Shown here: in pieces, positions 7,126-62,034 of the stretch
Numbering within the stretch: position 1 is the first letter of the stretch
How the letters are laid out: each line of letters starts with the position of its first letter
DNA from: Haloarcula limicola
Lineage (GTDB): Archaea > Halobacteriota > Halobacteria > Halobacteriales > Haloarculaceae
Assembly: GCF_010119205.1 (NCBI RefSeq)
Contig: NZ_WRXM01000001.1
Span: forward strand, 1,612,001-1,676,000
Reading direction: 5' to 3'
Length of the DNA: 64,000 nt
Notes under the pieces: generated by a model
Database searches by the model: none
Told to the model about the DNA's origin: nothing
Seen by the model: the letters and a program-made list of their open reading frames with translations, nothing else
Position numbers and translations under genes: made by a program

Positions 7126-7491
7126 GTGAAGTCGGGTAGCCGGTGCGCTGTCGATCGTCCCAGTACGCTCCGCGGCCGCAAAGCGGCGTCTCACGGGGCG
7201 TAGCGATATCCGATCCGGGGACGCGGCGCAGAACGGAACCATCGTCAGTCGGCCGCCTGTGCCTGTCCACCTGACTGGCTCTGGGCCATCTCGGCGGGGT
7301 TCTGCATCCCTCTTTGACGCCGACGTGGACGAGCACGGCGTTGCGAGCCGACAGACGGTGTCTCGTCAACCGACCAGTTTCTCCATCGTTTCGGTTACCG
7401 TTCCGGGGCTCGCGGCGGCGGAAACGTCGGCATCGAAACCATTCGGCAGTGACGTCGCGGAGAAGCGTTCAGCGGTCCGTCTACCGACCGA
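7126..7491. other. Intergenic stretch without a supported gene
   Basis: About 365 bp between the copper-storage-like gene and a convergent small membrane-protein gene. Open frames here are Arg/Ser-rich shadow frames. A 20-codon minus-strand frame at 7245-7307 (MQNPAEMAQSQSGG...) reads like the tail of a protein but has no credible upstream part. No promoter or repeat is convincing. Confidence 0.6.
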
Positions 7492-7743
7492 CTAGAGAGT
7501 CGTCCCGCGAGCGACGCAGTACATGAGCACGACTCCGGTCCCGACGGCGAGGACGAACTGGCCGAGGACGGAGAAGAGAGCGCCGAGGGCCGAACGGCCG
7601 AACAGGAAGAAGGCGAGCGCGTAGGGGACGAGCGCGAGACCGACGAACACGGCGATGAGTTTGGCGAGCGGCAGCGCCTCTTGTAGCAGCTGCGTCGTCT
7701 TCAGTTCACCCGTTGCGGAGTCGATAAACGGTCTGCGAGGCAT
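7492..7743 (-). CDS. Small two-helix membrane protein, haloarchaeal hypothetical
   Basis: The 83-residue protein has a polar N terminus (MPRRPFIDSATGELKT) and two hydrophobic segments at about residues 27-48 and 56-78, so it is an integral membrane protein. I recognise no functional motif. It lies just downstream of the asparagine-synthetase-like gene on the same strand (77-bp gap) but need not be co-transcribed. Confidence 0.7.
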   Translation of the reverse strand: MPRRPFIDSATGELKTTQLLQEALPLAKLIAVFVGLALVPYALAFFLFGRSALGALFSVLGQFVLAVGTGVVLMYCVARGTTL

Positions 7744-7819
7744 TCAACTGGGTGTTCCGAGCCATTCGTAAGTATTGCTCGGTCCCGAGCGGAGTCAGAC
7801 CGAGGAGCGGACGGTCGGT

Positions 7820-9742
7820 CTAGTCCACTCTGCCGCTACCGTCCGTCCGGGCGGAGCGAGCCGACTCCTGGCGAGAGGCCGGTTCCGAGGGGGAGAGCGA
7901 GCGGTCGCTTCCGTCGTCGATGCGGTCGAGGAGCGGCATGTTGAGGAACGTGGCGAGCGTGTACAGGTCCTTCATCCGATCCTCGCCTCGGCAGTGGGCC
8001 TCGTAACATTCCACGACGCCGTCCCAGTCGAGGAACGGGAGCTCCCGGATTCGCTCTTCGTTCGCGTCGATGGTGTCGCGGATGAACGAGTGGTTCCGGA
8101 TGAGGTTGTTGTGGTCCGTCCACGGGCCGCGCGTCCAGTGAGCGCGCGCGGGGTCCGACCGGAGATGCGTGTCCGCGAACGAGAGCGCGATGTTGCTCGT
8201 CCAGTTGAGCGCGAACGGATAGCGGATCGGAAAGAGGCCGCGGCCGTGCGGGATCTCGGCGAGCGGGGGCGAGAGTTTCGCCGTCGCTTTATTGATCAGG
8301 TCGCCCCGCAGGAAGTGCTCGGCGGGGATCTTCAGGAACAGGTCGATGAGGCGGTTGTCGAGGAACGGCGTCCCCGAGGGGATGAACTGCGCCGTCGCGT
8401 AGAGGAAGAACTGGGACGCGCTGTTGGTTACCGGGTACCGCTTACAGACCGTCGCCTCTCTGAGCGAGCGATACTCGACGCCGTGGTCGACGAGGGCATC
8501 GCCTCGCCTGGTGACGTTCTCGGCGTATATCTCTTCGGTACTCCGCGGCGACTGGAGGTAGGACGGCTTGCTCTTGGCCCGCTCTCCGACGAGCGCGTCG
8601 AGGTCTTCGAACCGGCGCTCGACCGGGAGGTCGAACGACCCTGCCGGCCCGAGGTCGATGTCCGCCGTCGGGAGGTCGTCGCCCTTGAACAGTGTATCAC
8701 CGTAGTGGCCGGTCAGCAGCATGTCACACTCCGATCGCAGGCGGTCCGCGAAGCCGCCGGCGTGGTTCTGGTTGAAGTAGCCGACGAAGTTCGACCGCTT
8801 CGATTCCCGCTCGAGAGCCTTCGCCTGATAGTCCTCGCCGCGTTTGAGCAACTGGAAGTCGATACCGACGGCGTCGGCCACGCGTTCGGCGATTCTGGCC
8901 TCTCGGTTTCGCCACTCGTTGAGGTGGAATCCCGTCACCGAGACGTCAAGCGAGTCGAGGGCGGCGAGGACGAGTCGCGAGTCGCTGCCGCCGCTCAACA
9001 GGAGTCCGTAGTCCGTCTCCGAGTCCGCGGTCCAGTCGGCGACGACGTCCTTCATCGTCCTCGCCAGTCGCTCGGCCAGCTGCTCCGCCGAGGCGTCGAC
9101 CGGGTCGTACACCGGTTCCCAGTACCGCTCGGTCGTCGTCTCGCCGGTGTCGACATCGACGGAGACGACGCTTCCGGGGTGGACCTTCTCGACGCCGCGC
9201 AGCGGCGTCTTGACCCCGTACGTCTGTTTCATCGAGAAGTACTCCGTGAGGTAGTCGAGGTCGAAGTCGGTATCGACGGCCGGATGGAGCGGAAGCGACT
9301 GGATGTTCGTAGAGAAGACGACGCCCCCGTCGGTCTCGTAGTAGTGAATTGGACGCGTCCCGAGCCGGTCGGAGAGCAATAGGAGGTCGCCGCGAGTTCG
9401 GTCGTAGATGACGCCGGCGAAGTTTCCGTTCACTCCCGACAGAAACGACGTGCCGTCGGCGGCGTACCGTTCGGCGCAGTAGGCCGCACCGTCGGTCTCG
9501 ACGGTGACGTACCCGTCGTCGGTCTCGTCGCCCCAGACGTCGCCCCAGAGCCAGACGGCGACGTCGCCGTTGGCGGCGGTCGCCGGTTTATCGCCGGCCT
9601 CGCCGGGATGAGAGACGCTCGCGACGGCTATTTCGTCGTCGCTAAACGTGTCCCGGTGATCGCTGTCGTTGTACTCTATATCGGCAGCGAGCGCCTCTGC
9701 CGAGAGCGGGGAGACGCCGGTAGCGCCGCAAAGACCAACCAT
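7820..9742 (-). CDS. Asparagine-synthetase-like amidotransferase lacking the N-terminal cysteine
   Basis: The 640-residue protein has an N-terminal Ntn-type region (residues 1 to about 200) and a C-terminal synthetase domain with the pyrophosphate loop LLSGGSDSR near residue 255. In glutamine-dependent asparagine synthetases Cys2 is the nucleophile; here the chain starts MVGLCG, with Val at 2 and Cys only at 5, so ammonia release from glutamine is doubtful. It may make an amide or other AMP-activated product, as in beta-lactam synthetase relatives. An ATAATAAATA box about 25 bp upstream (9765-9774) supports the start at 9742. It has no pathway neighbours. The C terminus (after about residue 600) is Ser/Arg-rich and poorly conserved. 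Confidence 0.8.
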   Translation of the reverse strand: MVGLCGATGVSPLSAEALAADIEYNDSDHRDTFSDDEIAVASVSHPGEAGDKPATAANGDVAVWLWGDVWGDETDDGYVTVETDGAAYCAERYAADGTSFLSGVNGNFAGVIYDRTRGDLLLLSDRLGTRPIHYYETDGGVVFSTNIQSLPLHPAVDTDFDLDYLTEYFSMKQTYGVKTPLRGVEKVHPGSVVSVDVDTGETTTERYWEPVYDPVDASAEQLAERLARTMKDVVADWTADSETDYGLLLSGGSDSRLVLAALDSLDVSVTGFHLNEWRNREARIAERVADAVGIDFQLLKRGEDYQAKALERESKRSNFVGYFNQNHAGGFADRLRSECDMLLTGHYGDTLFKGDDLPTADIDLGPAGSFDLPVERRFEDLDALVGERAKSKPSYLQSPRSTEEIYAENVTRRGDALVDHGVEYRSLREATVCKRYPVTNSASQFFLYATAQFIPSGTPFLDNRLIDLFLKIPAEHFLRGDLINKATAKLSPPLAEIPHGRGLFPIRYPFALNWTSNIALSFADTHLRSDPARAHWTRGPWTDHNNLIRNHSFIRDTIDANEERIRELPFLDWDGVVECYEAHCRGEDRMKDLYTLATFLNMPLLDRIDDGSDRSLSPSEPASRQESARSARTDGSGRVD

Positions 9743-48300: not shown

Positions 48301-48497
48301 GACGCGACGAGAGTCGCGTCCGAGCGACCCACCGTCAGAGCTCCGCTCACGAAAACGGGGAAGGGCAGGCCTGCAGTAGCATCCGGCGGCGAAGCCGCCG
48401 GTTTACCGGTCGTGAGCGGAGCGAACGACCGGCCTTTTTGTACTAAATTTTTGCGAGCGGGGGTCGCCGTCGGCGACCCCCCGAAGTAAAAATTTAG
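48301..48497. other. Hairpin-rich gap between antiporter and arlJ
   Basis: Four perfect stems lie in sequence: GACGCGAC/GTCGCGTC with GAGA loop (48301-48320); CCGGCGGC/GCCGCCGG with GAA loop (48383-48401); CCGGTCGT/ACGACCGG (48406-48432) followed by TTTTT on the + strand (48435-48439); and an 11-bp arm GGGGGTCGCCG/CGGCGACCCCC (48459-48481) enclosed by CTAAATTTTT (48443-48452) and AAAAATTTAG (48488-48497). The last structure begins in the arlJ stop codon. The third looks like a + strand terminator although no + strand gene precedes it, so an unannotated RNA is possible. Confidence 0.6.
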
Positions 48498-50242
48498 ATG
48501 GCGAGAAACTGCGTCACCAGCCACTTCGTGAACGTCCCGGTGACGCCGCCGATCCACGAGAGCACGACGAAGTGAAGGTAGGTGTTGGCCTTGTGGCCGC
48601 CGTCGACGGTGCGGATCATCAGCGCCGAGAGCATGGCCGAGAACATGATGATGATGACCAGCAGGAACTCGATGAGGGGGATGTCGTAGACGCCGGTGTT
48701 GATGAGCGAGTTCACGTCGAGGCGGCTGCCGGCGTTCAGGTCGAGGGACATCTGCGCGAGGATGTTGACGACCTGCAGGCCGATGAAGAAGGCGAAGGTG
48801 GAGGCGGCGGTGATCCCGTACAGCAGGCCGACCATCGTCGTCGTCGCCTGTTTGCGCTTCTGACGCAGTTGGAGGACCTCGTTCATGTTGGCGGCGATGA
48901 GTTCACCTAGCTGTTTGGGCGAGCCGCCCATCTCGCGGCCGATGAGGTACATCTCCGAGAAGGTCTGGATGAGGTAGGACCGACAGTCGGCGGTGAAGTA
49001 GCGCCACGCCGCGGTCGGTTCGATGCGCATGTTCAGCCGCTTGTAGAGGTCGTTGATGTTCTCGGTCAGCGGGCCGAAGTCCTTCTTGCGGAGGGTCCGC
49101 AGCACCATCCCCGTCGTCGACTGTTTCGCGCCTTCGGTGGCACCCAGCGCGCGGATGAAACTGGGGAACTCGTCGTCGCGGGCCTTCACCCGCTGTTCTT
49201 CCTGCCGGAAGACGATGCCGGGGATCAGCATCGGGGTGATGGGGACGACGGCGTAGAACGGCAGCGGGACCTCGTCTAAGAAGAAGAGGAGGTCGTTCAG
49301 GCCGATGGGAGTGACGCCGAACATCCCGCCCAGCGTGACGAACAGGAGGGCCGCCGAGAGGCCGACGCCGACGTACATCGCCTTATCGAGGCGCTCCTCG
49401 ATGGGCGAGGGGTACTCCTCGGGGTGGAACCACAGCGGGTCGTAGGGGGCCATCGACCGGATGGCGAGGTAGAAGCCCGACTGGACGAAGATGTACATCA
49501 CGATGACTGCGCTGACTGTCATCGTCGGGTTCGTCCCCGTGAGCACCGGGAGGACGACCGCAAACACCAGCGCGAACGTCATCGAGAGGATCATCGAGAG
49601 GTAGAGGTCCTTCATCACTTCGAGGCTGTCGAGGGAACTGCTGTAGACGGTGGTGTAGTGCTGGATGATCTGGGCCTGCTCGGAGATGAGGTAGTCGTCG
49701 AGCGACTGGCCCGCGCCGAGGGTGTAGGCGAGGCGGTCCAGGAAATCCGAGAAGGCGTCGCTGGGGACTTCCTTCGCGCGACGGCGACAGGCGTCGTCGA
49801 GGCTCTGGTTCCACGTATCGACCAGTTGGGTGATGCGGTGCATCTCCATCGCGAGTTCGCCGTACTCCTCCTCGCGGGCGAGCGTGCGGAACACCTCCAT
49901 GCGGTCGATCTTCGTCGTCGCCAGCACCGTCATGTGCGTGATCAGGAGGTGAAATCGGTTGTTGAGTTCGCGCTTGCGCTGGCTGAGCAGGATCTTCGGG
50001 TAGAACAGCGCCGCCGACATCGCCAGGAACCCGAGCAGGGGGATCGGAAGGCGAATCATCAGCGGCTGGTCCAACAGGAGCGCGGCCACTACCGAGAGGA
50101 CGAAAAAGCCCGCCGACGGCAGGAGGATGAAGAGGAGGTACCGCTCCAGCGGAATCGTCATCTGGCGATACGACTCCACTAGCCCCTGAACAGTCTCGGT
50201 GATCGTCAGGTCGAGTCCGTTCTCGGCTTCGCTCTGGGCCAT
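48494..50242 (-). CDS. arlJ: ArlJ (FlaJ), archaellum membrane platform protein
   Basis: The 582-residue polytopic protein is the membrane core of the archaellum motor, on which ArlI acts. Two hydrophobic blocks (about residues 30-85 and 235-350, then 490-580) flank cytoplasmic regions with T2SF-type segments. Its ATG overlaps the arlI stop by one base. It ends the arl operon and is followed by a strong inverted repeat. Confidence 0.96.
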   Translation of the reverse strand: MAQSEAENGLDLTITETVQGLVESYRQMTIPLERYLLFILLPSAGFFVLSVVAALLLDQPLMIRLPIPLLGFLAMSAALFYPKILLSQRKRELNNRFHLLITHMTVLATTKIDRMEVFRTLAREEEYGELAMEMHRITQLVDTWNQSLDDACRRRAKEVPSDAFSDFLDRLAYTLGAGQSLDDYLISEQAQIIQHYTTVYSSSLDSLEVMKDLYLSMILSMTFALVFAVVLPVLTGTNPTMTVSAVIVMYIFVQSGFYLAIRSMAPYDPLWFHPEEYPSPIEERLDKAMYVGVGLSAALLFVTLGGMFGVTPIGLNDLLFFLDEVPLPFYAVVPITPMLIPGIVFRQEEQRVKARDDEFPSFIRALGATEGAKQSTTGMVLRTLRKKDFGPLTENINDLYKRLNMRIEPTAAWRYFTADCRSYLIQTFSEMYLIGREMGGSPKQLGELIAANMNEVLQLRQKRKQATTTMVGLLYGITAASTFAFFIGLQVVNILAQMSLDLNAGSRLDVNSLINTGVYDIPLIEFLLVIIIMFSAMLSALMIRTVDGGHKANTYLHFVVLSWIGGVTGTFTKWLVTQFLAI

Positions 50243-51915
50243 CAGTTGGGCTTCGAGACGTTGAACGGGATGCCTTCGACGCCGTCGCGCTGGAAGTCAG
50301 AGATGAAGTCGTTGACCTCGTGATACCCCAAGATACCCTCCTGCATGGCGCGTTCGATCATGTTCGCGCGGAACTCCAGGTCGTCGTAGATGTCGCGGGT
50401 GTCCTCGTAGCCCAGCAGCGTCGCGATCTGCTCCTCCAAGACGTAGGAGTTGTTCATCCCCTGGAAGACGATCTCGTCCTCGACGGGGTCCCAGTTGAAC
50501 ACCTGTCGGGTGACGACGCCGTCCATCTCCTTGGAGTAGCCCTCGATTTCCTGAACGCTCGTGACGCGGCGCAGGACGCGGTCGCCCTGCTTGACGCGGT
50601 TCTGGAACAGCGCGACGTCGGCGACGTCCATGAACGTCTCGGGGACGTTGATCGGTTCACCGGTGAACCGTTGAATCATCGAGACGATGTCGCTCGCGTG
50701 GAAGGTCAGCATCACGGGGTGGCCGGTCTGGGCCGCCTGGAACGCCATGCGCCCTTCCTCGCCACGAACCTCGCCCACGATGATGTAGTCGGGCCGGGAC
50801 CGCAGCGCGGCGGCGACGAGGTCGAACATGTCGATGCTGGTCCCCTCGTCCTCGCCCTCGCGGGTGAGCAGTTGCTGCCAGGTGTTGTGCGGCGGCAGCA
50901 CCTCGGCGGTGTCCTCCGCGGTGTAGATCTTGGCGTCGTCGGGGATGAACGACGTGATGGCGTTCAGCGTCGTCGTCTTGCCCGACGCCGTCTCGCCGAC
51001 GACGAACACCGTCTGTTCGTTCTCCAGACAGAGCCAGAGGTACGCCGCCAGTTCCGGCGAGAGGGTCATCCACTTCGTGATCTGGAAGACCGACAGGGGG
51101 ACCTCGTCGCCCTGCCGGATGGTGAGCGACGGCCCCTTGACGCTCACGTCGTCGGAGTAGATGAGATTCAGCCGCGACCCGTCCGGCAGCGTCGAGTCGA
51201 CGATGGGGTCCGAGTCGGAGACCGGGTCGCCGATCCGCTCGCCCATGTTGCGGAGCCACTGGTCGAAGGCCTGCTCGCTCTCCCACTCGACGGTGGTTTC
51301 GAGCATGCCGTAGACGCCGTGGTCGACGTGACACTCGCTCCGGCCGATGACGTGAATGTCCTCGTTGGCCGGGTCGCGCATCACCGGTTCGAGCGGCCCG
51401 AGGCCGACGATGTCTCGGTTCAGGCGATAGAGGATGTTCTCGTAGGTCGACTGGGTCACCTCGACGCTGCCCACGTCGGCGAGATTCGACAGGCGCGTGA
51501 GGACGCCGCTGTCGCCGTCCTCGTTGCGGATGCGGGTCGTCTCCTGGAGGAGTTCCTCGATCCGGTCGTCGTACTCGGCCTCGCTCTCGGGGGCGGGTTT
51601 GTTGACGCTCTTCTGGAGCAGGCGGTTGCGGACCTTATCGAAGACGACGCCCTCTTCTTGGTCGAGTTCCGGTTCGATGGCGTAGTACTTCATATCCTGC
51701 CCGATGTCGCCGTAGATGTGACAGAAGATGGGGCCGCCGACGGGGTAGAGGACGTTGGGGCGGTTGGACTCGTAGTCGCCGTCGGCCTCCTCGATGAGCA
51801 TGGGAAACTCTCCGGTGATCTGCTTGAACTTCTTCAGGTGGTCCCGCAGGTGCGGCCGCCGGGCGGCTAGCTGTCGAAGTTCGTCCGAGGGTTTCGCGCG
51901 GCCGTGGTCTGTCAT
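50242..51915 (-). CDS. arlI: ArlI (FlaI), archaellum motor ATPase
   Basis: The 557-residue hexameric ATPase drives assembly and rotation of the archaellum. Visible elements are Walker A VVGETASGKTTTLNAI near residue 305, the Asp box and RPDYIIVGEVRGEE Walker B region near residue 370, and HASD further on. The first 80 residues include the typical N-terminal domain. It is 13 bp after arlH and overlaps arlJ. Confidence 0.97.
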   Translation of the reverse strand: MTDHGRAKPSDELRQLAARRPHLRDHLKKFKQITGEFPMLIEEADGDYESNRPNVLYPVGGPIFCHIYGDIGQDMKYYAIEPELDQEEGVVFDKVRNRLLQKSVNKPAPESEAEYDDRIEELLQETTRIRNEDGDSGVLTRLSNLADVGSVEVTQSTYENILYRLNRDIVGLGPLEPVMRDPANEDIHVIGRSECHVDHGVYGMLETTVEWESEQAFDQWLRNMGERIGDPVSDSDPIVDSTLPDGSRLNLIYSDDVSVKGPSLTIRQGDEVPLSVFQITKWMTLSPELAAYLWLCLENEQTVFVVGETASGKTTTLNAITSFIPDDAKIYTAEDTAEVLPPHNTWQQLLTREGEDEGTSIDMFDLVAAALRSRPDYIIVGEVRGEEGRMAFQAAQTGHPVMLTFHASDIVSMIQRFTGEPINVPETFMDVADVALFQNRVKQGDRVLRRVTSVQEIEGYSKEMDGVVTRQVFNWDPVEDEIVFQGMNNSYVLEEQIATLLGYEDTRDIYDDLEFRANMIERAMQEGILGYHEVNDFISDFQRDGVEGIPFNVSKPN

Positions 51916-51928
51916 ATCTTGGAACCCC

Positions 51929-52690
51929 CTATGCGACGCTCCGCGATTCGATGACGATGCCGGTACCCGACCGGACCGAGAAGCCGACGGTGTCGCCGAC
52001 CTGTTCGCCCATCCCCGCGAATCGGAGGACGTTGATCTGCCGGCGCACGTCGTTGCCGACCTCGATCATCTCCAGTTCGATGAACACGTCGGCGATGGCC
52101 CGGAACGGGCCGATCGCCTCCTCGTCGAGCGTCGAGGGGTCGACGGTCAGCATGACACATCGCCCCTGTGAGATGATATCCCGGAAGAAGGAGATGATCT
52201 CCAGCGCGGCCTGTCGCTCGTCGTTCTGTCGGACCAGCGCCTCGAACTTGGGGTCGTTCCGCAGGATAGCGTCGAAGGTGTCGATGACGACGACGTCGGC
52301 GTCCCACATCACTTCGGCCTCCATCAGGCGTTTGAGGAGTTCCTTGCGCTCTTTCTGCTCGTCGCCGCCGGAGAACGTGTTCGAGTCCCCGATGTCTGCG
52401 TGCAAGAAGAGGACGTTCTCATCGAGCAGGTGGTCGACCATGTCGTAGGACAGCGAGTGCATCTGGTCGAGGAAGCTCCCGACGGTGAGCTCCGTCGAAA
52501 GGTAGGTCACGTCGTGGCCCTCCTCACAGAGGCCGTAGGTGAAGCGCTGACTCATCGCGGACTTCCCGGCCCCGTAGTCGCCCTCGACGAGGATGATGCT
52601 GCCCGGCGGGATGCCGCCGCCGAGTTCCTTGTTCAGTCGGTCGTGATCGTCCAGTCCGAGCGAGAACAGATCGCTGTTTGCGAGACTCAT
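51929..52690 (-). CDS. arlH: ArlH (FlaH), archaellum KaiC-like ATPase
   Basis: The 253-residue RecA-like protein has Walker [14 protein letters not shown] (Lys43) and Walker [14 protein letters not shown] near residue 120. It forms a ring with ArlI and is controlled by autophosphorylation in other archaea. Its start overlaps the arlG stop in ATGA, so they are translationally coupled. Confidence 0.96.
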
Positions 52691-53139
52691 GTTCGGAATT
52701 TGAACACCTCTTCGTCGCCGTTGACGACGACCTTGACGCGGTGGTCGCCCGGCGACAGCGAGTGAGAGATCTCGAGGCGGACGACCGTGCCGGGCCGCCA
52801 GACGACGCCGTCGTCTAAGAGCGTGACGCCGAACGTCCGGGCGTACTGCCCGTCGACGAACAGATCCATCTGCCCGGGTTCGGCCCCGAGGTCCTCGGAG
52901 CCGGTGTTCTTGACGTGGAGCGTGATGTTGTCGTTACCGCTGGTGTTGTAAATCGCGTCGCTCCCGGCGTCGGAGATGACCTCGATGTCGGTGCGGACTT
53001 CGCTGCTGACGTCGAGTCCCTGTTCGGAGACGGCGTTGCTCAACTGCCCGATGCTGTCGGTGAACACGCCGGCGACGCTCGCGGCGACCATCATCGACGC
53101 GATGAAGAGGATGAGGTGGGAGGCCGAGACGCTCGCCAT
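52687..53139 (-). CDS. arlG: ArlG (FlaG), archaellum stator component
   Basis: The 150-residue protein has one N-terminal membrane helix (residues 4-25) and an extracytoplasmic beta-sandwich domain. With ArlF it forms the pseudoperiplasmic filament anchored to the S-layer. The start directly abuts the arlF stop. Confidence 0.93.
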
Positions 53140-53583
53140 CTAGCTCACCTCCGTCGTCGTCTCGACGACCGAGACGCCCGGGCCGGTGACGAACTTCGCC
53201 CGGCCCGGGTCCGCCGTGAGACCGGTCGCGTTAACGACCAGTCGCTCCTCGGGAAGCCAGAGATCCGTCGCCTCGTCGCCCTCGACGGCGGTCCGGTAGC
53301 CGGTGAGGTAGGTGTTGTCCGCGAGCACGTCCACGTCGCTGACGGCCAGTTCCGTCGAACCGGTGTTGACGACGGTGACGTTCAGCGAGTCCGCCGTCGA
53401 GTTGTAGACGACGGAGGTGAGCTCGATCGCGGTGTTTTGCTGTTCGAGCGTCCGATCGGCCTGGGCGTCGCGGGCGTCGTTGACGTTCTCGAAGCCGTTG
53501 GCCGTCGCCGAGTAGAACATCCCGAAGCCGATGAACATGGCGACGAAGACGAGGGCCGCCGAGCCGCTAACGCTGAAGCCCAT
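53140..53583 (-). CDS. arlF: ArlF (FlaF), archaellum stator component
   Basis: The 147-residue protein has an N-terminal membrane segment (MGFSVSGSAALVFVAMFIGF) and a beta-rich external domain. ArlF binds the S-layer and gives the motor a fixed point. The start at 53583 is preferred over 53592. It overlaps the arlC/E gene end by 17 bp. Confidence 0.93.
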   Translation of the reverse strand: MGFSVSGSAALVFVAMFIGFGMFYSATANGFENVNDARDAQADRTLEQQNTAIELTSVVYNSTADSLNVTVVNTGSTELAVSDVDVLADNTYLTGYRTAVEGDEATDLWLPEERLVVNATGLTADPGRAKFVTGPGVSVVETTTEVS

Positions 53584-55177
53584 CGGCACCACCTCCGACG
53601 AGTTTCGAGAGCGCGACGGCCTCGGGACCGCTGTCCTCGTCGAGCTGTGAGATGTACCGGAGGCTCTCGGTGTGGTGATCGATGGTCAGGCCGCCGCTGG
53701 CGTCGGCCACGTCGTCGAAGCCGCGAAGGTACTCCGACAGCGCGTCGGCCACCGCAGCGTCGATCCAGCCGATGGTCTCGTAGTAGTCGATGGCGCGGGC
53801 GGCCTCGCGGTAGCCCGCCTGTCCGACGAGGTACTCCAGCCACTCGACGACGATGAGGTCGGCCGCGAACCCCTCCGGAACCGAATCGAGGTACGGCTTG
53901 CCGTCGTCGCCGTCGTCGCTCTCCTCGGCCGCGGATCCGGTCGTCGGTTCCGGCCTCGGCTCCGATTCCGTTGCTTCCGGCGTCGGATCGGAGACCGGTT
54001 CGGGCTCCGGTTCCGGGGCGGGGTCGGGTTCCGGGGCCGCTTCGACCGTGGCGTCGCCGTCCAGCAGCGCCGCGTCGGACTCGGCGTCGGCATCGTCGGT
54101 CGACGCGTCGTCGCCCTCGTCCTCGATAACCTCGTCGAAGAGGTCGTCGTCCGCGAGGCTGTCGTCGTCGAAAGTGTCGTCGCCGTCGTCCATCGCCACC
54201 TCGTCGCCGCCGTCGTCGAACGCGGCCTCGGCGTCGTCGTCCAGCAGCGCCGCGTCGGACTCGCCCTCGTCTTCCGGTTCCTCGCCGTCGGCCCAGTCGG
54301 CGTCGCCGGATTCGTACTCGTCTTTCAGTTCGGCGAAGGACTTGCCCCCCTCGCTGTCCCCGTCGTCGCTCCCCTCGTCCACGTCGAGTCCGTCGTCCAT
54401 GCTCATGTCGTCATCCGTCTCCTCGAAGTCCTCGAACTCCTCGTCGAACGACCCGCCGTCGTCCTCGAAGCCGCCCATGTCGTCGTCGCCGAAGATGTCG
54501 TCGCCGTCGTCCATCGCCATCTCGTCGCCGCCGTCGTCGACGAGGTCCTCGTCGAAGAAGCCCTCGGCGTCGGCGTTGGCGACGGTGTCGTCGATCTCCT
54601 CTTCGTCCTCGTCGTCGCCGTCGTCGTCGAACAGGCCGAAGGAACCGCCGCCCCCCATGCCGCCGCCCATCCCGGCGTCGACGTCGTCGGCGAAGGGGTT
54701 CACCCCGCGAGTGACCATCTCGTAGATGTCGAGCAGTTTCCGGACGTTCTCCTCGACGTCTTCGACGGATTCGGAGATGGACTCGTTCTCCGTGCGGACG
54801 GTGTTGACCGTCGAGGAGAGCGAGCCGACCTCGTTCTCCAGTTCGTCGAGCCGGTGTTCTAACTCGTCCGTGTCCGGGCCGCTCGCGTCCTCCATGTCGC
54901 CGAACTCGTCGTCGCCGAACCCGCCCATGTCGTCGCCGTCGCCTAGCCCGCCGAGTCCGCCGAGGTCGTCGTCCCCGCCGTCATCAGCCATCAATCCGCT
55001 GTCACCGCTCATCTCGTTCGCGTCGTCGCCCTCGCCGTCCGACATGATCGAATCGAACATGCTCTTGATGCTCATCCCGACGAGGCCCCCCGAGAGGACC
55101 ACGAGCAACGCGGGCACGAGTGCGACCGCGTCCGGGGTAGCCGCCTGTAGCGTCGGCACGAGAGCGAGACTACTCAT
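53567..55177 (-). CDS. Fused ArlC/D/E-type archaellum accessory protein
   Basis: The 536-residue protein starts with one membrane segment (about residues 15-35), followed by the FlaC-type coiled coil (LEHRLDELENEVGSLSSTVN, about 105-165), a very long acidic linker with internal repeats (DDGGDEVAMDDGDD-like and SDAALLD-like units, about 170-420) and a C-terminal FlaD/E domain (KPYLDSVPEGFAADLIVVEW, about 435-515). This is the cytoplasmic ring part that links motor and chemotaxis in euryarchaea. A TATC-N6-GATA site (55223-55236) precedes its TATA box (55207-55212). Confidence 0.9.
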   Translation of the reverse strand: MSSLALVPTLQAATPDAVALVPALLVVLSGGLVGMSIKSMFDSIMSDGEGDDANEMSGDSGLMADDGGDDDLGGLGGLGDGDDMGGFGDDEFGDMEDASGPDTDELEHRLDELENEVGSLSSTVNTVRTENESISESVEDVEENVRKLLDIYEMVTRGVNPFADDVDAGMGGGMGGGGSFGLFDDDGDDEDEEEIDDTVANADAEGFFDEDLVDDGGDEMAMDDGDDIFGDDDMGGFEDDGGSFDEEFEDFEETDDDMSMDDGLDVDEGSDDGDSEGGKSFAELKDEYESGDADWADGEEPEDEGESDAALLDDDAEAAFDDGGDEVAMDDGDDTFDDDSLADDDLFDEVIEDEGDDASTDDADAESDAALLDGDATVEAAPEPDPAPEPEPEPVSDPTPEATESEPRPEPTTGSAAEESDDGDDGKPYLDSVPEGFAADLIVVEWLEYLVGQAGYREAARAIDYYETIGWIDAAVADALSEYLRGFDDVADASGGLTIDHHTESLRYISQLDEDSGPEAVALSKLVGGGADGLQR

Positions 55178-55222
55178 CGTCTGTGAGGATTCTCTCGCCC
55201 ACCATCAATATACCGTCTAGCG

Positions 55223-55236
55223 TATCAAATCTGATA
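55223..55236 (-). promoter_or_regulatory. TATC-N6-GATA element upstream of arlC/E
   Basis: Read toward the gene the site is TATCAGATTTGATA. It ends 10 bp upstream of the TATA-like TATATT (55207-55212), which in turn is about 30 bp from the start codon. It is one of five exact copies in the motility locus. Confidence 0.65.
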
Positions 55237-55426
55237 ATAACTTCCCAAGCTACGTGTCCGAAATACTGGAATTAACTACATATCGTTCAGTCGTCACAGA
55301 TGAAGCGGCGCGTCGTCGCTTTTCGCAGCTGTACGGCGTTGAGCGCCGCGCTCGCGGCTGACGTGTGGCTGCCGTTCGTCTGACGAGAAGAGAGACTCGG
55401 CCGCCGTCCGGCGATCTCGCCCGAAA

Positions 55427-55948
55427 TCAAAGCGTCGCCGAGTCCATGTTGGCGCTCTTGACGACGAGGTTCCCGGTGTCGGATTCCAAGCGGAGCGAGC
55501 GGCCGTGGTCGCCGCCCACGTCCTCGCCGACGAGGGGGATGCCGTACGCTTCGAGCGTCTCTCGGACCTTTTCGGCGTTGCGCGACCCGATAGACGAACC
55601 GTTCTCCGAGAAGTCGAGCATGTCGCTGCCGCCGGCGATCTTCGCTCGCATCCCGTCGCGGGACGCCCCCTCGGCTTCGAGCGCTTCGACGAGCACCGCG
55701 ACGCCGGTGTCGGCGAACTTCGCCCTGTTGCCGCCCTCGACGTCCTCGGCCGTCGGTAACATGACGTGGACTAAGCCGGCAGCGCCCGACAGTTCGTCGT
55801 AGATGGCGACGCCGATACAGGAGCCGAGACCGCTGGTCGTCAACACCGCCGAGTCGGTCGTCACCTGGTATTCGGCGATACCGATCTTGACGCGCTCCGG
55901 ATCATCGGTCCGGGTCGTCTCCGACTGCGTGCCGTCGTAGACCTTCAT
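55427..55948 (-). CDS. cheD: CheD, chemoreceptor glutamine deamidase
   Basis: The 173-residue protein has the catalytic GLGSCIGV (Cys44) and LVHVML (His61) of CheD, which deamidates receptors and binds CheC. Its ATG overlaps the cheC stop region by one base. It ends the cheY-cheC-cheD operon. Confidence 0.95.
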   Translation of the reverse strand: MKVYDGTQSETTRTDDPERVKIGIAEYQVTTDSAVLTTSGLGSCIGVAIYDELSGAAGLVHVMLPTAEDVEGGNRAKFADTGVAVLVEALEAEGASRDGMRAKIAGGSDMLDFSENGSSIGSRNAEKVRETLEAYGIPLVGEDVGGDHGRSLRLESDTGNLVVKSANMDSATL

Positions 55949-57165
55949 TATTCGAATATCTGTTCGACGTCGGCGTCGGTCTCATCGGCGCGTTCGACGT
56001 CCAAGTCGTCGAGCGCCGCTCGCAGTTCCCGCTCGTTGGGGAGCGCGTGTATCTCGGCCTCGAACTCGATGTCGTCGGTCCGCATCTTCGAATCGATGAT
56101 GAACGCGTGTTCCTGGTGCTGACCGACCTGTGCCGCGAGGGGGTCCACGATGGCGCGCCCCATGTCGTGGACGAGGCGCGGCGGCGTGTGGTCTACCGAG
56201 GTCTGCAAGACGTTCGCCCACCCGTCGACGAACCCGCTGGTCATGATGTTTCCCAGTTCCTCGATCGCCATCTCGTGTTGCTCGGTGAGTTCGTCACTGT
56301 CCATCTCGACGGGCATCATCGCTTCGGCGACGGTCACGGCCGAGCGCTCGTCGAACAGCACCATCAGGTAGCCGCTGGGCGTCCCGGTGAACTCGACCAC
56401 GGTGCCCACGTAGGTATCGGTGCCGATCTGGCGCGGAACGTCCTCGATGGGAGCGAAACTGAGCTGTGTCACCTCCGCCTCGGTCGGAATCCCGGTCATC
56501 ATCTCGACGTTGTCGGCGGCCTGCCGGGTGCCGCTGGTGGTCATCTCGTTGAACGTCTGTAACTTATCGATGGGGATGGCGTCGCCGTCGGTGTCGGCGT
56601 GTCGCATCATCGCGTCCGCGAGCGAGTCGTACTCGGGGAGCATGTAGATGTAGAAGTTCACCGACTCGTCCATCCACTCGATCTCGGATTTGAAGACGAA
56701 CACCTGCGAGTACTCCTGGGATTCGGGCGCCTCGGGCAACACGTTCGCGCCCGTCTTCTCGATGTACGTCGGCGGCGAGTGGTCGATCGTCGAATCGAGG
56801 TAGTCGGCCCACCCGTCGATGAAGCCGCTCATCATGATGTTGCCGATCTCGGTGATGCCGCTTTCGGCCATCGCCGGGTCGTCGCTGCTGCCGGGCAGCA
56901 GCGCGTCGGCGATGGTGTCGGCCGACTCGCTATCGAACACCAGCACCGTCTCTCCCTCCAGTACCCCCTCGAAGCCGAACTGAACGCCGACGAACTCCTG
57001 TCCGGCGAGTCCCTCGCCGACGTCCTCGCGGTCGAGCAGCGTGATCTTCGTCACGTCGACGGCGGCGTCGATGCCCGTCATCTGTGTCAGCGACCGGGTC
57101 GCCTGTTCGGCCCCCTCGTGTGCGAGTTGGTTGAACGTGCCGAGCGACTGGATGTCGACGTTCAT
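55948..57165 (-). CDS. cheC: CheC, CheY-P phosphatase, duplicated domains
   Basis: The 405-residue protein has two CheC units, each with an ExxN phosphatase signature: TEIGNIMMSGFIDGW (about residue 107) and EELGNIMTSGFVDGW (about residue 310). CheC removes phosphate from CheY and is stimulated or sequestered by CheD. The start directly follows the cheY stop. A duplicated CheC of this length is known in haloarchaea. Confidence 0.95.
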   Translation of the reverse strand: MNVDIQSLGTFNQLAHEGAEQATRSLTQMTGIDAAVDVTKITLLDREDVGEGLAGQEFVGVQFGFEGVLEGETVLVFDSESADTIADALLPGSSDDPAMAESGITEIGNIMMSGFIDGWADYLDSTIDHSPPTYIEKTGANVLPEAPESQEYSQVFVFKSEIEWMDESVNFYIYMLPEYDSLADAMMRHADTDGDAIPIDKLQTFNEMTTSGTRQAADNVEMMTGIPTEAEVTQLSFAPIEDVPRQIGTDTYVGTVVEFTGTPSGYLMVLFDERSAVTVAEAMMPVEMDSDELTEQHEMAIEELGNIMTSGFVDGWANVLQTSVDHTPPRLVHDMGRAIVDPLAAQVGQHQEHAFIIDSKMRTDDIEFEAEIHALPNERELRAALDDLDVERADETDADVEQIFE

Positions 57166-57525
57166 CTACGACGGGACGACGTCCTGAATAGCCTCGATTA
57201 CACTCGGCTTCTGGAACGGTTTGGTGATGTAGCCGTCGGCGCCCGCCTTGACGGCCTCCTTCATCTTCTCTTCCTGGCCGACGCTCGTACACATGATGAC
57301 GTTGGCTTCGGGGTTCGAGGTCTTTATCTCGTCAGTCGCTTCGATGCCGTCCCGAATGGGCATCACGATGTCCATCATCACGAGATCGGGCGACTGCTCC
57401 TTGTACACCTCGACGGCTTCCACCCCGTTCTCGACTTCACCCACTATCGTGTGGTCCTCCTCAAGAATCTCCCGGAGGAGGTTCCGCATGAACTCCGAAT
57501 CGTCGGCAATCAGTACGTCTGGCAT
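57166..57525 (-). CDS. cheY: CheY response regulator
   Basis: The 119-residue single-domain receiver has the acidic pocket Asp8-Asp9, phospho-acceptor Asp52 (MMDIVMP), Ser/Thr80-81 and Lys102 (ITKPF). It binds the archaellum switch through adaptor proteins when phosphorylated by CheA. It heads the cheY-cheC-cheD operon; a TATA-like CTTTATTTAG lies near 57556-57565, preceded by a regulatory palindrome. Confidence 0.97.
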   Translation of the reverse strand: MPDVLIADDSEFMRNLLREILEEDHTIVGEVENGVEAVEVYKEQSPDLVMMDIVMPIRDGIEATDEIKTSNPEANVIMCTSVGQEEKMKEAVKAGADGYITKPFQKPSVIEAIQDVVPS

Positions 57526-57633: not shown

Positions 57634-59601
57634 TCAGAGCGAGGGTAATCGCGCCGTGGTCACGCGAACCACGTCGAAAGCATAGGTGCCGTACTCGAAG
57701 TAAACCAGTCCCGAGAGCAGTAGATAGGCCGTGGCGAACCCGGCCGACAGCGCCAGCCCGACCGCGACCGCACGCGACGAGACGCGGTCCGGGGCGACCG
57801 TTCGGCCGAGCGCGGTCCCGGCACAGGCGGTCGCGGCCGCGAGGTTCCACAGCGCGTGGTACTGCACCGCCTCTCCGAGCGCCAGGTCGAGACCCGCGAT
57901 CCCCCCGAGAACGACGGCGAGCGCGAACGCGAGACTCGCGGCGTAGAACCGAATCAGGCGTCCCATCCCGTCGGTTACTGCTGTCCGAACGGCGGGGACG
58001 CGACAGACGCCGTAGAGCGCCAGAGGGACGACCGGATGGATATACCGGACCGTGAGCATACTATAGAGGGGCAGTCGCGGGAGGTAAATGACGGTCAACA
58101 CGACCGTCAGCGCCACCACGAGCAGATCGGTCTGCCGTCGCGGGGCGAGGCGGCGGGGACGTGCCCCCTGAAGGAACCCCCATCCGTCTCGGAGCACTCG
58201 CCGGCCGGCGAGAACCGGCAGCGCCAGCAACGCCCCGAGTATCGACATCGCTTCGAGCAGGGAGAGCTCTATCACCTCGTGGTCGTTGAGGTCGTAGCGC
58301 ATCCCCTCGATGTGGCCGCTCCGGACGAAGATATCGACGAGTCGGGCCGGTTCACCGAGGACGCCGATGCCCCCGACGACGGCGCCGCCGACGAACTGCC
58401 AGGCCGGTCCGGCGGCTCTCCGAACTCTGTCGAGTATCGGCACGTCGGAGCCGTCGTCGGTACTGCCACCCTCGGCGCTACCGCCGCCCTCGCTGCCGCC
58501 GTCTGCACCACCACCGCCTCCCGTACTTCCGTCGTCACCGCTCGCACCGTCACCGACCCCCCCGTCCGCGCCGCTCGACGGGGCGAACTCCACGTCGCCG
58601 TCCTCGGCATTCGGGAGGAGGCGCGGGGGCTTCGCGGGATTGCCGGAGATGGCGTAGTTCGTCGCCAGCATCGGCGTCGCCGCCAGCAAGAGCACGCAGC
58701 CGACCACCAGCAAGTCTCTGGGTCGGTTCGAGCGAGCGGTCGAGAGATCTACGACGGCCAGCGTCCCGACGAGGAAGAACGCCTCGAAGGCGTGGACCCA
58801 CGTGACGAGACCCGCCAGCGCGTACGCGCCCGCTCTGGCGCGCATCGCCGCCCGTCCCTCGGCCCGTCGGCTCACCGCGAACGCGTAGACGGCGGCGATC
58901 GTCAGCAAGGCGACGACCGTGTGCCGTTTCGGGATCGTCGCCCAGAACCCGACGGGCGTGGCGACGCCGAGGGCGACCCCGGCGGCCAGACCGACCCGCT
59001 GGCCGTGCAGGGCGCGGAGGAGACGATAGCAGACGAGACACGCCGTCGCGGCCGCGACCATCGTCGAGAGTTGGAGAGCCGCGAGCGCCAGCCGGTCCCG
59101 CGGGAGGTCCGTCGCCGTCAGCACGCTACCGGCGAACAGCAGCGCGACGACGATGCCGCCGACGGTTCGCGTCCGCTCGCGGTCGACGCCGTCGAGCCGG
59201 CTCGCCTGCGCGACGAACGCGAGGCCGAGTCCCGCCCAGAGCGACGCGAGCAGCAGGCGCGGGGCGACGAGAGCGCTGAGCCCCTCCAGCGCCCAGACCA
59301 GCGGCACGGCGAGCGCGAGTTGGCCGTAGTTGCGCCCGTACAGCCGCCCACCGTACTGATGGAGGCCGGGCTGCGATCCCAGCGTCAGCGAGTACCGCAG
59401 TTCGGTGACGTGGAGGTGTCCATCGGCGAGCGCGACCAGCGCGTTCGCCAGCGCGTAGGTGTCCTGGATGAAGATGCCGACTCGCCACGTCAGTCCGAAC
59501 CAGCAGAGGACGCCGAGCCACAGCAGGAGGCCGGGTCGGTCGCCGAACGCCCACCAGAGAAGTCGCCGCGCGTGTCGCCGGCCGTCCCGCGCGCCGGTCA
59601 C
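57634..59601 (-). CDS. Large polytopic membrane protein in the motility locus, unknown
   Basis: The 655-residue protein has about twelve membrane segments and a long Ser/Gly/Asp-rich loop (about residues 335-390, GGGADGGSEGGGS-like). The build is like that of lipid-linked sugar or mannosyl transferases of the GT-C type (an early acidic/aromatic loop after helix 1), but no signature proves it. It starts with GTG at 59601, overlapping the TGA of the 59598-60074 gene, so both are co-translated. A role in glycosylating the archaellin or in envelope assembly is possible. Confidence 0.65.
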   Translation of the reverse strand: MTGARDGRRHARRLLWWAFGDRPGLLLWLGVLCWFGLTWRVGIFIQDTYALANALVALADGHLHVTELRYSLTLGSQPGLHQYGGRLYGRNYGQLALAVPLVWALEGLSALVAPRLLLASLWAGLGLAFVAQASRLDGVDRERTRTVGGIVVALLFAGSVLTATDLPRDRLALAALQLSTMVAAATACLVCYRLLRALHGQRVGLAAGVALGVATPVGFWATIPKRHTVVALLTIAAVYAFAVSRRAEGRAAMRARAGAYALAGLVTWVHAFEAFFLVGTLAVVDLSTARSNRPRDLLVVGCVLLLAATPMLATNYAISGNPAKPPRLLPNAEDGDVEFAPSSGADGGVGDGASGDDGSTGGGGGADGGSEGGGSAEGGSTDDGSDVPILDRVRRAAGPAWQFVGGAVVGGIGVLGEPARLVDIFVRSGHIEGMRYDLNDHEVIELSLLEAMSILGALLALPVLAGRRVLRDGWGFLQGARPRRLAPRRQTDLLVVALTVVLTVIYLPRLPLYSMLTVRYIHPVVPLALYGVCRVPAVRTAVTDGMGRLIRFYAASLAFALAVVLGGIAGLDLALGEAVQYHALWNLAAATACAGTALGRTVAPDRVSSRAVAVGLALSAGFATAYLLLSGLVYFEYGTYAFDVVRVTTARLPSL

Positions 59602-60074
59602 GCCGCCACCTCCACGGTCACGTTCTCGCGGTAGACGGTTCGATCGGTGGTGAAACTCTGAACCCGGACGGCCAGCGTGCCGTCGTAGGTAGATGCGTCG
59701 GCCGCTCCCCGTGCCATCCCCCGATCGTCCGGCACGAGTCGATACGTCCCCGTCTTCGACACGACGGCCGTCTCGGTCAGTTCGACGTCGAGCGCCGGCA
59801 CGAGGACGCGATAGACCAATCGCGGCCGGTCCGAGACCGACGTGACCGTGACCGTCGCCGTCGGCACGCGGAGGTAGGAAACGCCGGTGCCGAAGCGGCC
59901 GTCGGTGACGCGGAGCGCCGCCGTGTCGACCGTGACCGCTCCGACGGTCGCCGTCCCGTCGCCGAACTCCGTGGCTCGCTGCTCGGTCACGTCCACGCCG
60001 GTCAGCGGCCCCGTCGCCACCGAGACGACCACGACGAAGAGGGCGACGCCGGTCAGCAGATCCCGTCGGGTCAT
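59598..60074 (-). CDS. Membrane-anchored exported protein coupled to the polytopic membrane protein
   Basis: The 158-residue protein has one N-terminal membrane segment (LLTGVALFVVVVSVATGP) and an extracellular beta-rich domain ending in TVEVAA. No family is recognised. The 4-bp GTGA overlap with the next gene indicates joint function. It lies upstream in the motility locus between the acidic DUF7500-like gene and the membrane protein. The start at 60074 is preferred to 60089. Confidence 0.7.
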   Translation of the reverse strand: MTRRDLLTGVALFVVVVSVATGPLTGVDVTEQRATEFGDGTATVGAVTVDTAALRVTDGRFGTGVSYLRVPTATVTVTSVSDRPRLVYRVLVPALDVELTETAVVSKTGTYRLVPDDRGMARGAADASTYDGTLAVRVQSFTTDRTVYRENVTVEVAA

Positions 60075-60120
60075 CGCCTGCACTACCAAGGCGGGCGACC
60101 GGTGTTAAATCCCTCGTCGG

Positions 60121-60681
60121 TCAGAACTCCGCGCCGTCTCGCGCTTCGACCGCTTCGAGCAGGTCGGCGACGGTGTCGTCCGGCGAGACGCCGGTCGATT
60201 TGACGGCCTCCCTGAAACTGGCCGGCGGGTACTTCACGGGGACGTTCGACTCCGAGAGGAGGATGCCGAGCACGTCCTCGACGTCCGTCGAGCCGTCCAT
60301 CCGGCGACCGTACCACAGCATCAAGCTCTCGAAGACGGTGACGATGTCGTTGGAAGTGAGCTGTTGCTGGTCGACCTCGCCGTCGAACTTCGCGGTCACG
60401 TCGAACCCGTAACGGGTATTGGAGTCGGCCAATTGCTCGGCGAGCCAGTCATGGACGTTCGCGTCCGAGAACTCCGGCGTCGCCGGCTCGGGTTCGAGTT
60501 CCGGCTCTGGTGTCGGTTCTGCCGAGGCGGGGAGACTGCCCTCGTCGGTCCGCACGTCCGAGGAGACGACGTAACGGCCCTCGTCGATCTCGGTGACGTG
60601 TTCGTCCTCGGCGATATCCAGCTCTTCGGGGGAGAGTATCTTCCCATCTTCCGGCTTCGGTTCGTCTGGCCCCCGCGACAT
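60121..60681 (-). CDS. Acidic soluble protein of the archaellum locus (DUF7500-like)
   Basis: The 186-residue protein has a disordered Pro/Glu-rich region (about residues 45-75) and a C-terminal folded region (YGFDVTAKFDGEVDQQQLTSNDIVTVFESLMLWY...). I recall it as DUF7500, seen next to archaellin genes in haloarchaea. No motif tells the function. It has its own promoter-like GTATAATT near 60703 but no TATC-N6-GATA site, unlike its neighbours. Confidence 0.7.
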   Translation of the reverse strand: MSRGPDEPKPEDGKILSPEELDIAEDEHVTEIDEGRYVVSSDVRTDEGSLPASAEPTPEPELEPEPATPEFSDANVHDWLAEQLADSNTRYGFDVTAKFDGEVDQQQLTSNDIVTVFESLMLWYGRRMDGSTDVEDVLGILLSESNVPVKYPPASFREAVKSTGVSPDDTVADLLEAVEARDGAEF

Positions 60682-60758: not shown

Positions 60759-61394
60759 TTAGAGCGTGACCGCGGAGTTACCCGAAAGCGTCTCGGGGAC
60801 CACGAGTCGAACGGTGGTGGTACCACCGGATTGGGTGTTCAGGCGGATGGTCGCAGTTGCACCCTCACCTAGACCTGCGGCGTCAGTAGAGTCAGCACTT
60901 TCACCGTGGATGTCTCGGACGTTGAACGTGAGCGTCGCGCGGTCGGATGGATCGTTGAGCACCTGACTGCTTGAGATAGAGGTGTCGTCGTCCTGAACCT
61001 CGGACACGCCGTAGTTGTCGTTATCGGAAGTGGAAGCAGCACTTTCGTCGACGGTCAGGTCGTAGGATCCGGACGAGTCGACCCACTGGGCGATCGTACT
61101 GCCGATGTCAATGTTCGCGGCACCGGGCGCTTTCTTCACTGTGACTTCAACGGTGTCAACCTCGCTGTTCTCACTGTCAATGGACGTACCGACTGTATTT
61201 ACCACTTCGAGCCGATTGGTAACTTGATCGCTGCTCTGTTGTCCGGTCTCTTCCGCACTCGACTGCAAGAATCCTGCCGTGTTGATGAGGACGCCCGCGG
61301 CGATAGCGGCGACCAGCACCATCGCGATGAACACGATGAGGGTGCCGATCCCGACCTGCCCGCGGTCGTCGTCGTTTCGTAGTTTGTCGAACAT
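60759..61394 (-). CDS. Archaellin (flagellin)
   Basis: The 211-residue protein is the filament subunit. It has a prepilin-type leader [15 protein letters not shown] cut after Gly15 by the prepilin peptidase, a hydrophobic N-terminal helix ([19 protein letters not shown]) and a Ser/Thr-rich surface domain without proline-rich repeats. Only one archaellin gene is present here. Its 5' leader of about 25 nt contains AGGTC/GACCT (61405-61419). The TATA-like TAATAATA is at 61443-61450, preceded by a regulatory palindrome. Confidence 0.95.
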
Positions 61395-61758: not shown

Positions 61759-62034
61759 TCAGTCGTAGGTGACGAGACTGTACATCACGAACAGGTAGCC
61801 GAAGGTCGTCAGGCCGCTGTTGACGAGCAAGAGCGACTTCACGCCCTCGAAGTCGTTGACGAACGCGCTGATCATGGTCGCTGCCGCCCCGGCGACGGCC
61901 AGCGAGAATCCGAGCGAGAGATGGAGCATCGCTTTTCGGGACGTCTGGACGTACGCCCGCATCGCCATCCCGACCATGGTGAGCCCGGCGACGACGAATA
62001 CCAGCGTCGAGATGGCATAGAGGAGTTCTATCAT
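61759..62034 (-). CDS. Small three-helix membrane protein (DUF7521 type), paralogue of 11369-11668
   Basis: The 91-residue protein has three hydrophobic segments (about residues 4-26, 34-57 and 65-87) with YVQTSRKAML between the first two, matching the protein at 11369-11668. It follows the HTH gene (85-bp gap, own TATA and TATC-N6-GATA site). A partnership in sensing at the membrane is proposed, not shown. Confidence 0.8.
   Translation of the reverse strand: MIELLYAISTLVFVVAGLTMVGMAMRAYVQTSRKAMLHLSLGFSLAVAGAAATMISAFVNDFEGVKSLLLVNSGLTTFGYLFVMYSLVTYD

Follow-up and report, generated by a model that had tools for sequence, protein, structure and literature searches.

A two-gene module linked to archaellin and PilA pilin genes in haloarchaea, a candidate filament-dedicated glycosylation system

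Introduction

What do three uncharacterized genes do in the middle of an archaellum locus? The window analyzed here, a stretch of 64,000 nucleotides of the Haloarcula limicola genome (contig NZ_WRXM01000001.1, positions 1,612,001 to 1,676,000), includes an archaellum and chemotaxis gene cluster in which cheY and the archaellin gene are separated by three genes, coding for two proteins denoted P1 and P2 and for a DUF7500 protein. We describe here, as new, the P2-P1 module, its linkage to archaellin and PilA pilin genes, and the selective depletion of the respective filament subunits in N-glycosylation sites (N-X-S/T, hereinafter sequons). The reading that we favor, and regard as fairly probable, is that P2-P1 is a GT-C system dedicated to filaments, the activity of which, probably direct O-glycosylation, takes the place of N-glycosylation.

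P2 and P1 form a module linked to genes of filament subunits

The P1 and P2 genes were located by profile, given that some P1 genes, such as that of locus L083, escape codon-based gene calling. Homologues of P1 were found in 58 of the 292 sampled genomes of the class and those of P2 in 62; in a sample of the wider phylum, the P2 profile matched 9 of 294 genomes, all from the order to which the window belongs. Removal of exact-duplicate P1 sequences and of pieces shorter than 300 amino acids left 128 distinct P1 loci, which still include near-duplicates from the two genome collections. P2 is located directly upstream of P1, on the same strand, in 112 of these loci, and P2 and P1 are one two-gene module. 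An archaellin or PilA pilin gene is found within 3 kb of P1 in 82 loci (archaellin in 37, PilA in 45). The P1-bearing genomes, 57 in this count, contain 484 Pilin_N genes, or approximately 8.5 per genome, and arithmetic from this number gives about 1.5% of positions as the chance of a subunit gene at this distance. The relevant genes of the window are as follows.

57634..59601, minus strand: P1, predicted GT-C glycosyltransferase, 655 amino acids, GTG start (open reading frame, AlphaFold model, fold match)
59598..60074, minus strand: P2, predicted exported or membrane-anchored Ig-like beta-sandwich protein, 158 amino acids, with a conserved sequon close to the C-terminus (open reading frame, model, linkage to P1)
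60121..60681, minus strand: acidic DUF7500 protein, 186 amino acids, cytosolic by appearance (PF24332 match)
60759..61394, minus strand: archaellin, the proposed acceptor (PF01917, E 2.6e-34)
57166..57525, minus strand: cheY, downstream border of the module (open reading frame; conserved neighbor in relatives)
48494..57165, minus strand: arlJ, arlI, arlH, arlG, arlF, arlCE, cheD and cheC, the remainder of the co-directional motility cluster (arlCE, cheD and cheC named by Pfam; the other arl genes by size, order and co-occurrence in relatives)

The coordinates and the minus strand of the three open reading frames between cheY and archaellin, as reported in a first-pass annotation made from the sequence alone, were verified. 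All genes from archaellin to arlJ are co-directional, with short gaps, and the P2 stop overlaps the P1 start in a GTGA at 59601-59598; the ATG at 60074, which gives the 158-residue P2, is a more likely start than the TTG at 60089. P1 and P2 are single-copy in this genome. Given that the gene order archaellin-DUF7500-P2-P1-cheY is repeated across many Haloarculaceae loci, and given the number of genomes with homologues, P1 and P2 are real genes. Both evolve fast: in two loci of the same genus (L081 and L082), identity to the window proteins is 65 and 53% for P1 and 65 and 54% for P2, compared to 92-93% for ArlH and 77-81% for the archaellins. The nearest named relative is Haloarcula amylovorans, with a P1 that is 82% identical. 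The P1 gene of L083 (positions 7415-9397) is intact, with a codon usage that the codon model does not recognize as coding, hinting at lateral transfer.

In the P1 tree, the archaellum-linked genes comprise one clade of 45 rows (Shimodaira-Hasegawa-like approximate likelihood ratio test, SH-aLRT, 98), of which 38 are located in arl loci: 33 in ordinary loci of the Haloarculaceae type and five (L118, L124, L128, L157, L160) in a second, divergent type of arl locus with a different gene order. The remaining seven are relocated copies, mostly from Halorientalis, that are found elsewhere without P2. The finding that the first-pass annotation named as adverse to an archaellum function, namely genes located mostly away from archaellum loci, formally describes the P1 family as a whole and does not describe its archaellum-linked clade. 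Relocated P1 genes of this clade without P2 include those of L107, L154, L156, L159 and L236, the first of which lies amid sugar-nucleotide and glycosyltransferase-like genes. Genomes G058, G086 and G168 still have P2 in the arl locus, with P1 moved out, and in G230 P2 is kept in the arl locus and no arl-type P1 was found.

Upstream of pilin-linked modules there are usually one to four pilA genes, and downstream a gene for a phosphoribosyltransferase-like protein of 187-189 amino acids. In L102, L106 and similar loci, the module is located between a cluster resembling Mrp-type antiporter genes and the 189-residue phosphoribosyltransferase-like gene, a conserved setting in which both names are our reading of the sequences. 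The earlier view of the three genes as a single archaellum-specific set is not supported: the module adjoins PilA genes in more loci than archaellin genes, a substantial number of loci have neither neighbor, and DUF7500 is independent of the module (see below).

Archaellins and pilins linked to the module are depleted in sequons

The C-terminal domain of the window archaellin contains no sequons. Among 70 arl loci, archaellins contain on average 0.56 sequons in the 38 loci with both P2 and P1 (2.15 expected from composition), 0.0 in the four loci with P2 only and in the single locus with P1 only, and 3.72 in the 27 loci that lack both genes (2.97 expected). Comparison with shuffled sequences indicates that the effect is specific to the sequon: module-bearing archaellins have 31 observed versus 125 expected, with 116 versus 127 for the reversed motif S/T-X-N and 107 versus 130 for N-X-X-S/T, and module-free archaellins of ordinary length have 186 versus 113, with 103 versus 113 for the reversed motif. 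In this test, L124, where P2 was undetected, was scored as module-free, which works against our interpretation. L184, at a contig end, and L099, where a P1 from another clade lies at a distance of about 10 kb, were counted as module-bearing. When 83 motifs with S/T context were scanned, the sequon gave the largest contrast between the two groups (z difference -15.9; the next motif, -5.5). The contrast is also seen within genera: in g5, module-bearing archaellins have 0, 0, 0 and 2 sequons versus 5, 6, 4, 3 and 6 in module-free ones, and in g7, 0, 0 and 1 versus 5, 6 and 6, plus three long module-free archaellins with 0. By these counts, the archaellins of module loci have lost N-glycosylation sites selectively.

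A similar pattern is observed in the second class of filaments. PilA pilins encoded within 3 kb of the module have 48 sequons versus 105 expected (ratio 0.46, z -6.5, 83 proteins), compared to 84 versus 52 (1.61, z +5.4, 33 proteins) in module-free Haloarculaceae and 47 versus 44 (1.07, 31 proteins) in module-free genomes of other families; the ratio for the reversed motif is 0.86-1.04. The other proteins examined do not follow the filament subunits: in the arl loci, ArlF has an excess of sequons with the module (97 versus 63 expected) and without it (39 versus 22), ArlG is neutral, and the P2 family itself is strongly enriched (216 versus 62 expected, 105 proteins). The loss of sequons is confined to filaments. 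Each of the 21 genomes tested, of which 15 have the arl module and 6 lack it, contains matches to STT3, the AglB-type oligosaccharyltransferase (weak ones in G165 and G273). Given the retention of sequons in ArlF and P2 and the presence of STT3, N-glycosylation has probably been removed from the filaments only and is retained by the cells.

To take relatedness into account, a tree of 62 of the 70 loci was built from CheC, CheY, CirA and CheD; eight loci lacking marker genes were left out (L118, L124, L128, L157, L160, L237, L251, L266), including L251, an exception to the sequon rule. Gain and loss of the module on this tree amount to at least 8 events. Phylogenetic regression over the 57 loci with archaellins shorter than 280 amino acids gives a module effect of -3.30 ± 0.82 sequons (p 2e-4). 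An independent-pairs test with the cut at 1 sequon shows no signal (0.9 agreeing and 0.7 opposing of 8 pairs), whereas with the cut at 2.75 and long archaellins as a separate class, both chosen post hoc with the data already seen, 6.8 of 8 pairs agree and none oppose (median p 0.016). By the same post hoc classes, 23 of 24 module-free loci have either at least 2.75 sequons or a long archaellin, as against 1 of 38 module loci; with the three module-free loci from outside the tree added, the count is 25 of 27, and only L240 and L251 do not conform.

Several observations weigh against the link between the module and the loss of filament N-glycosylation. P2 is missing from 16 of the 128 P1 loci, and in 46 no subunit gene was recognized within 3 kb. 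When all 62 loci are included, the regression yields +2.58 at lambda 1 and -0.31 (p 0.59) at lambda 0.5; the sign is reversed or lost because of five module-free loci (L093, L096, L098, L244, L273) with long archaellins (289-471 amino acids) that have 0-1 sequons. These five Haloarculaceae archaellins contain 1 sequon versus 26 expected and possibly possess an extra outer domain instead of glycans. In addition, L251 is module-free and has a short (about 180 amino acids), sequon-poor archaellin, and L165, L151 and L172 keep 2-3 sequons despite the presence of P2-P1. Pilins encoded elsewhere in module-bearing genomes are depleted as well (37 sequons versus 56 expected, ratio 0.66, z -3.0, 40 proteins), and therefore the module may act in trans on distant pilins. 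Finally, the search over the 83 motifs yielded none beyond N-X-S/T that is distinct enough to be named as an acceptor motif.

Predicted structures of P1 and P2

Neither P1 nor P2 has a Pfam or NCBIfam match at E<=1. Specifically, the window P1 matches neither the PMT_2 (PF13231) nor the STT3 (PF02516) profile at this threshold; PMT_2 is matched by 7 of 47 P1 homologues at E<=0.1 (best E 3.4e-5). A search of PDB sequences with the P1 profile gave no usable homologue (best value 0.021). The search with P1 alone had a taste-receptor chain as the best hit (0.0035), which we judged to be due to chance.

The AlphaFold model of P1, based on an alignment of the 47 homologues, has a mean predicted local distance difference test score (pLDDT) of 87.7 and a predicted template modeling score (pTM) of 0.89, and its sole disordered part is a Gly/Ser-rich loop (residues 335-383). 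A long, Gly/Ser/Asp-rich loop of variable length is present at this position in most P1 homologues. Foldseek comparison with the PDB yielded two significant matches, both to ArnT (E 2.8e-4). With VIA-align, the best match is ArnT as well (5f15; Z 19.1, 382 residues, 5.1 A), followed by ALG12 (Z 18.2), oligosaccharyltransferases (up to 18.1; AglB structure 3waj, 16.9) and protein O-mannosyltransferases (about 15.5). GT-C enzymes occupy each of the first 28 rows and almost all of the top 43 or so, down to Z 7.8; the other rows are a chain of the GPI transamidase (row 29) and a designed helical barrel (row 42). By its modeled fold, P1 is thus predicted to be a GT-C glycosyltransferase, which bears out the initial description of a GT-C-like polytopic membrane protein. 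Asp47 (D47), at the end of the first outer loop, between the helices 22-37 and 48-59 of the model, is invariant in all 127 aligned P1 homologues, as are K225, H227, Y260, D285, N315 and R519. D47 is likely to be the catalytic residue, a putative role assigned by analogy with other GT-C enzymes.

P2 combines an N-terminal hydrophobic stretch with a confidently modeled ten-strand beta-sandwich (residues 34-158); the 33 N-terminal residues have pLDDT <50, with no confident helix ahead of the beta domain. The protein is predicted to be exported or membrane-anchored, and the earlier description of an exported protein stands. Because the best fold matches of P2 are Ig-like domains of a generic kind (GH2 enzymes, Z up to 9.6), we did not deduce a function from them; none of ArlF, ArlG and archaellin is among the matches listed, which excludes nothing. 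A search of PDB sequences with the P2 profile gave no usable homologue, the best hit being a fimbrial subunit (0.018). Given that, according to excerpts of PMC7347861, an Ig-like C-terminal domain is common to archaeal pilins and archaellins, P2 may resemble the filament subunits that it serves. With a sequon located within the last 14 residues in 75 of 118 P2 proteins, the P2 proteins are possibly N-glycosylated themselves.

A proposed mechanism and its alternatives

The scheme that we propose starts from points with direct support: the fold and the conserved residue of P1, the linkage of P2 to P1 and of both to subunit genes, and the filament-only loss of sequons. The donor, the type of linkage, the acceptor and the role of P2 are what we infer from these points. 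The module would be dedicated to type IV pilus-like filaments, both archaella and PilA pili. P1, located in the cytoplasmic membrane, would use a sugar linked to polyprenyl (dolichyl) phosphate as the donor and, with D47 as the likely catalytic residue, transfer this sugar on the outer side of the membrane prior to filament assembly. On the same side, P2 would present the filament subunit to P1 or bind the glycan. The acceptor in the window would be the archaellin encoded two genes upstream. Because N-X-S/T sites are lost from the subunits that are linked to the module, transfer to Ser/Thr, i.e., O-linked, in place of AglB-type N-glycosylation of the filament, appears most likely. Filament glycosylation, one of several functions offered for the locus by the first-pass annotation, gains from the subunit linkage and from the sequon depletion in archaellins and pilins alike, and becomes the leading idea.

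An alternative that we consider unlikely is that P1 uses a dolichyl-phosphate sugar to finish or elongate an N-glycan or a lipid-linked glycan and is located near filament genes for co-regulation. In Haloferax, the last mannose is added in this manner. In favor of this alternative, GT-C enzymes of the same fold include finishers of lipid-linked glycans (ALG12 and ArnT, with the Z scores given above), some P1 relatives, such as that in L107, reside in sugar-gene loci, and STT3 is present in every genome tested. However, the subunits of module loci are without N-glycan sites, which leaves little N-glycan to finish.

It is likewise improbable that P1-P2 acts on another surface molecule (the S-layer, a lipid, a polysaccharide or P2 itself), with the loss of filament sequons being a lineage habit. 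The loci with no nearby subunit gene, the long module-free archaellins that are similarly sequon-poor and the richness of P2 in sequons fit this possibility; it is at odds with subunit linkage far over chance in separate clades, the within-genus contrasts in g5 and g7, and the replication of the sequon effect in pilins. A non-enzymatic role in filament assembly or secretion, like that of Pseudomonas TfpX/Y/Z, is very unlikely: non-glycosyltransferase accessory genes beside pilA do exist (PMC11841053, in excerpts) and P2 is plausible as a chaperone-like domain, but P1 has retained a GT-C fold in which polar and charged residues are invariant, and subunits occur without the module in many related loci.

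Under the preferred O-glycosylation reading, a broader proposal can be entertained, which we see as possible rather than probable: P2-P1 would be the first archaeal protein O-glycosylation system located, would have displaced N-glycosylation from archaella and pili, and would account for one of three largely exclusive surfaces of haloarchaeal archaella, made of N-glycans, of module-made glycans or of an enlarged outer domain.

Relation to known glycosylation systems

The nearest functional parallel of P2-P1 appears to be TfpO and TfpW of Pseudomonas aeruginosa, which, in the excerpts of PMC11841053, modify the associated pilin and guard against pilus phages. Compared by gene setting and descriptions, the likeness consists in a glycosyltransferase gene beside the gene of a filament subunit; unlike these bacterial systems, the archaeal module would also serve archaella. 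We know of no P2-like partner in the TfpW/TfpO systems. ArnT and the PMT_2 family provide the best fold match and the few profile matches of P1 homologues, but the sequence identity is 13-14%, P1 itself has no Pfam match, and its gene is found in the context of filament subunits rather than of lipid A. AglB, which according to excerpts of the literature N-glycosylates archaellins and pilins in other archaea, shares the GT-C fold and differs in that P1 does not match the STT3 profile, separate STT3 genes are present and the proposed targets of P1 are sequon-poor. O-glycans on archaeal filaments are described for Saccharolobus pili (PMC7347861, in excerpts), and the archaeal O-glycosylation pathway is termed elusive and yet to be elucidated in excerpts of a 2021 glycoproteomics paper (PMC8241124). 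The likeness is limited to the presence of O-glycans on filaments; with the pathway undescribed, there is no enzyme for comparison. No description of such an archaeal filament module was found in the titles and abstract openings of the open-licence PMC papers that the searches listed.

The module is a named two-gene candidate for archaeal O-glycosylation that is present in cultured Haloarcula species (L141, L143, L145-L149, L152, L176), among them H. vallismortis (L176), H. japonica (L146) and H. argentinensis (L148), and we predict that the archaellins and pilins of module-bearing Haloarcula carry a P1-dependent glycan that is not N-linked. More generally, the loss of N-sequons from filament proteins is a sign by which a switch between glycosylation systems can be recognized in genomes, and it bears on the changes of filament surfaces when filament-binding viruses attack.

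DUF7500 and a neighboring membrane protein

The identification of the third gene product as an acidic DUF7500-like protein was correct: the 186-residue protein matches Pfam DUF7500 (PF24332) with 208.3 bits (E 1.4e-61), far above the curated cut-off of 27. The family is represented in 231 of the 292 sampled genomes of the class, and all 58 DUF7500 loci examined contain arl or che genes (archaellin in 41), mostly without P2-P1; the regions L271 and L276, which begin at arbitrary contig starts, contain no DUF7500 gene. DUF7500 is thus separate from the module, and the best reading is that it belongs to the core archaellum/chemotaxis proteins of haloarchaea; a function as an adaptor in the motor or in assembly is a tentative and somewhat doubtful suggestion. 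DUF7500 is unmentioned in the open-licence PMC papers searched.

Between the archaellin gene and a helix-turn-helix gene, the window also encodes DUF7521, a small membrane protein (61759-62034), which keeps this position in most of the arl loci seen and is 84-97% identical in many Haloarculaceae.

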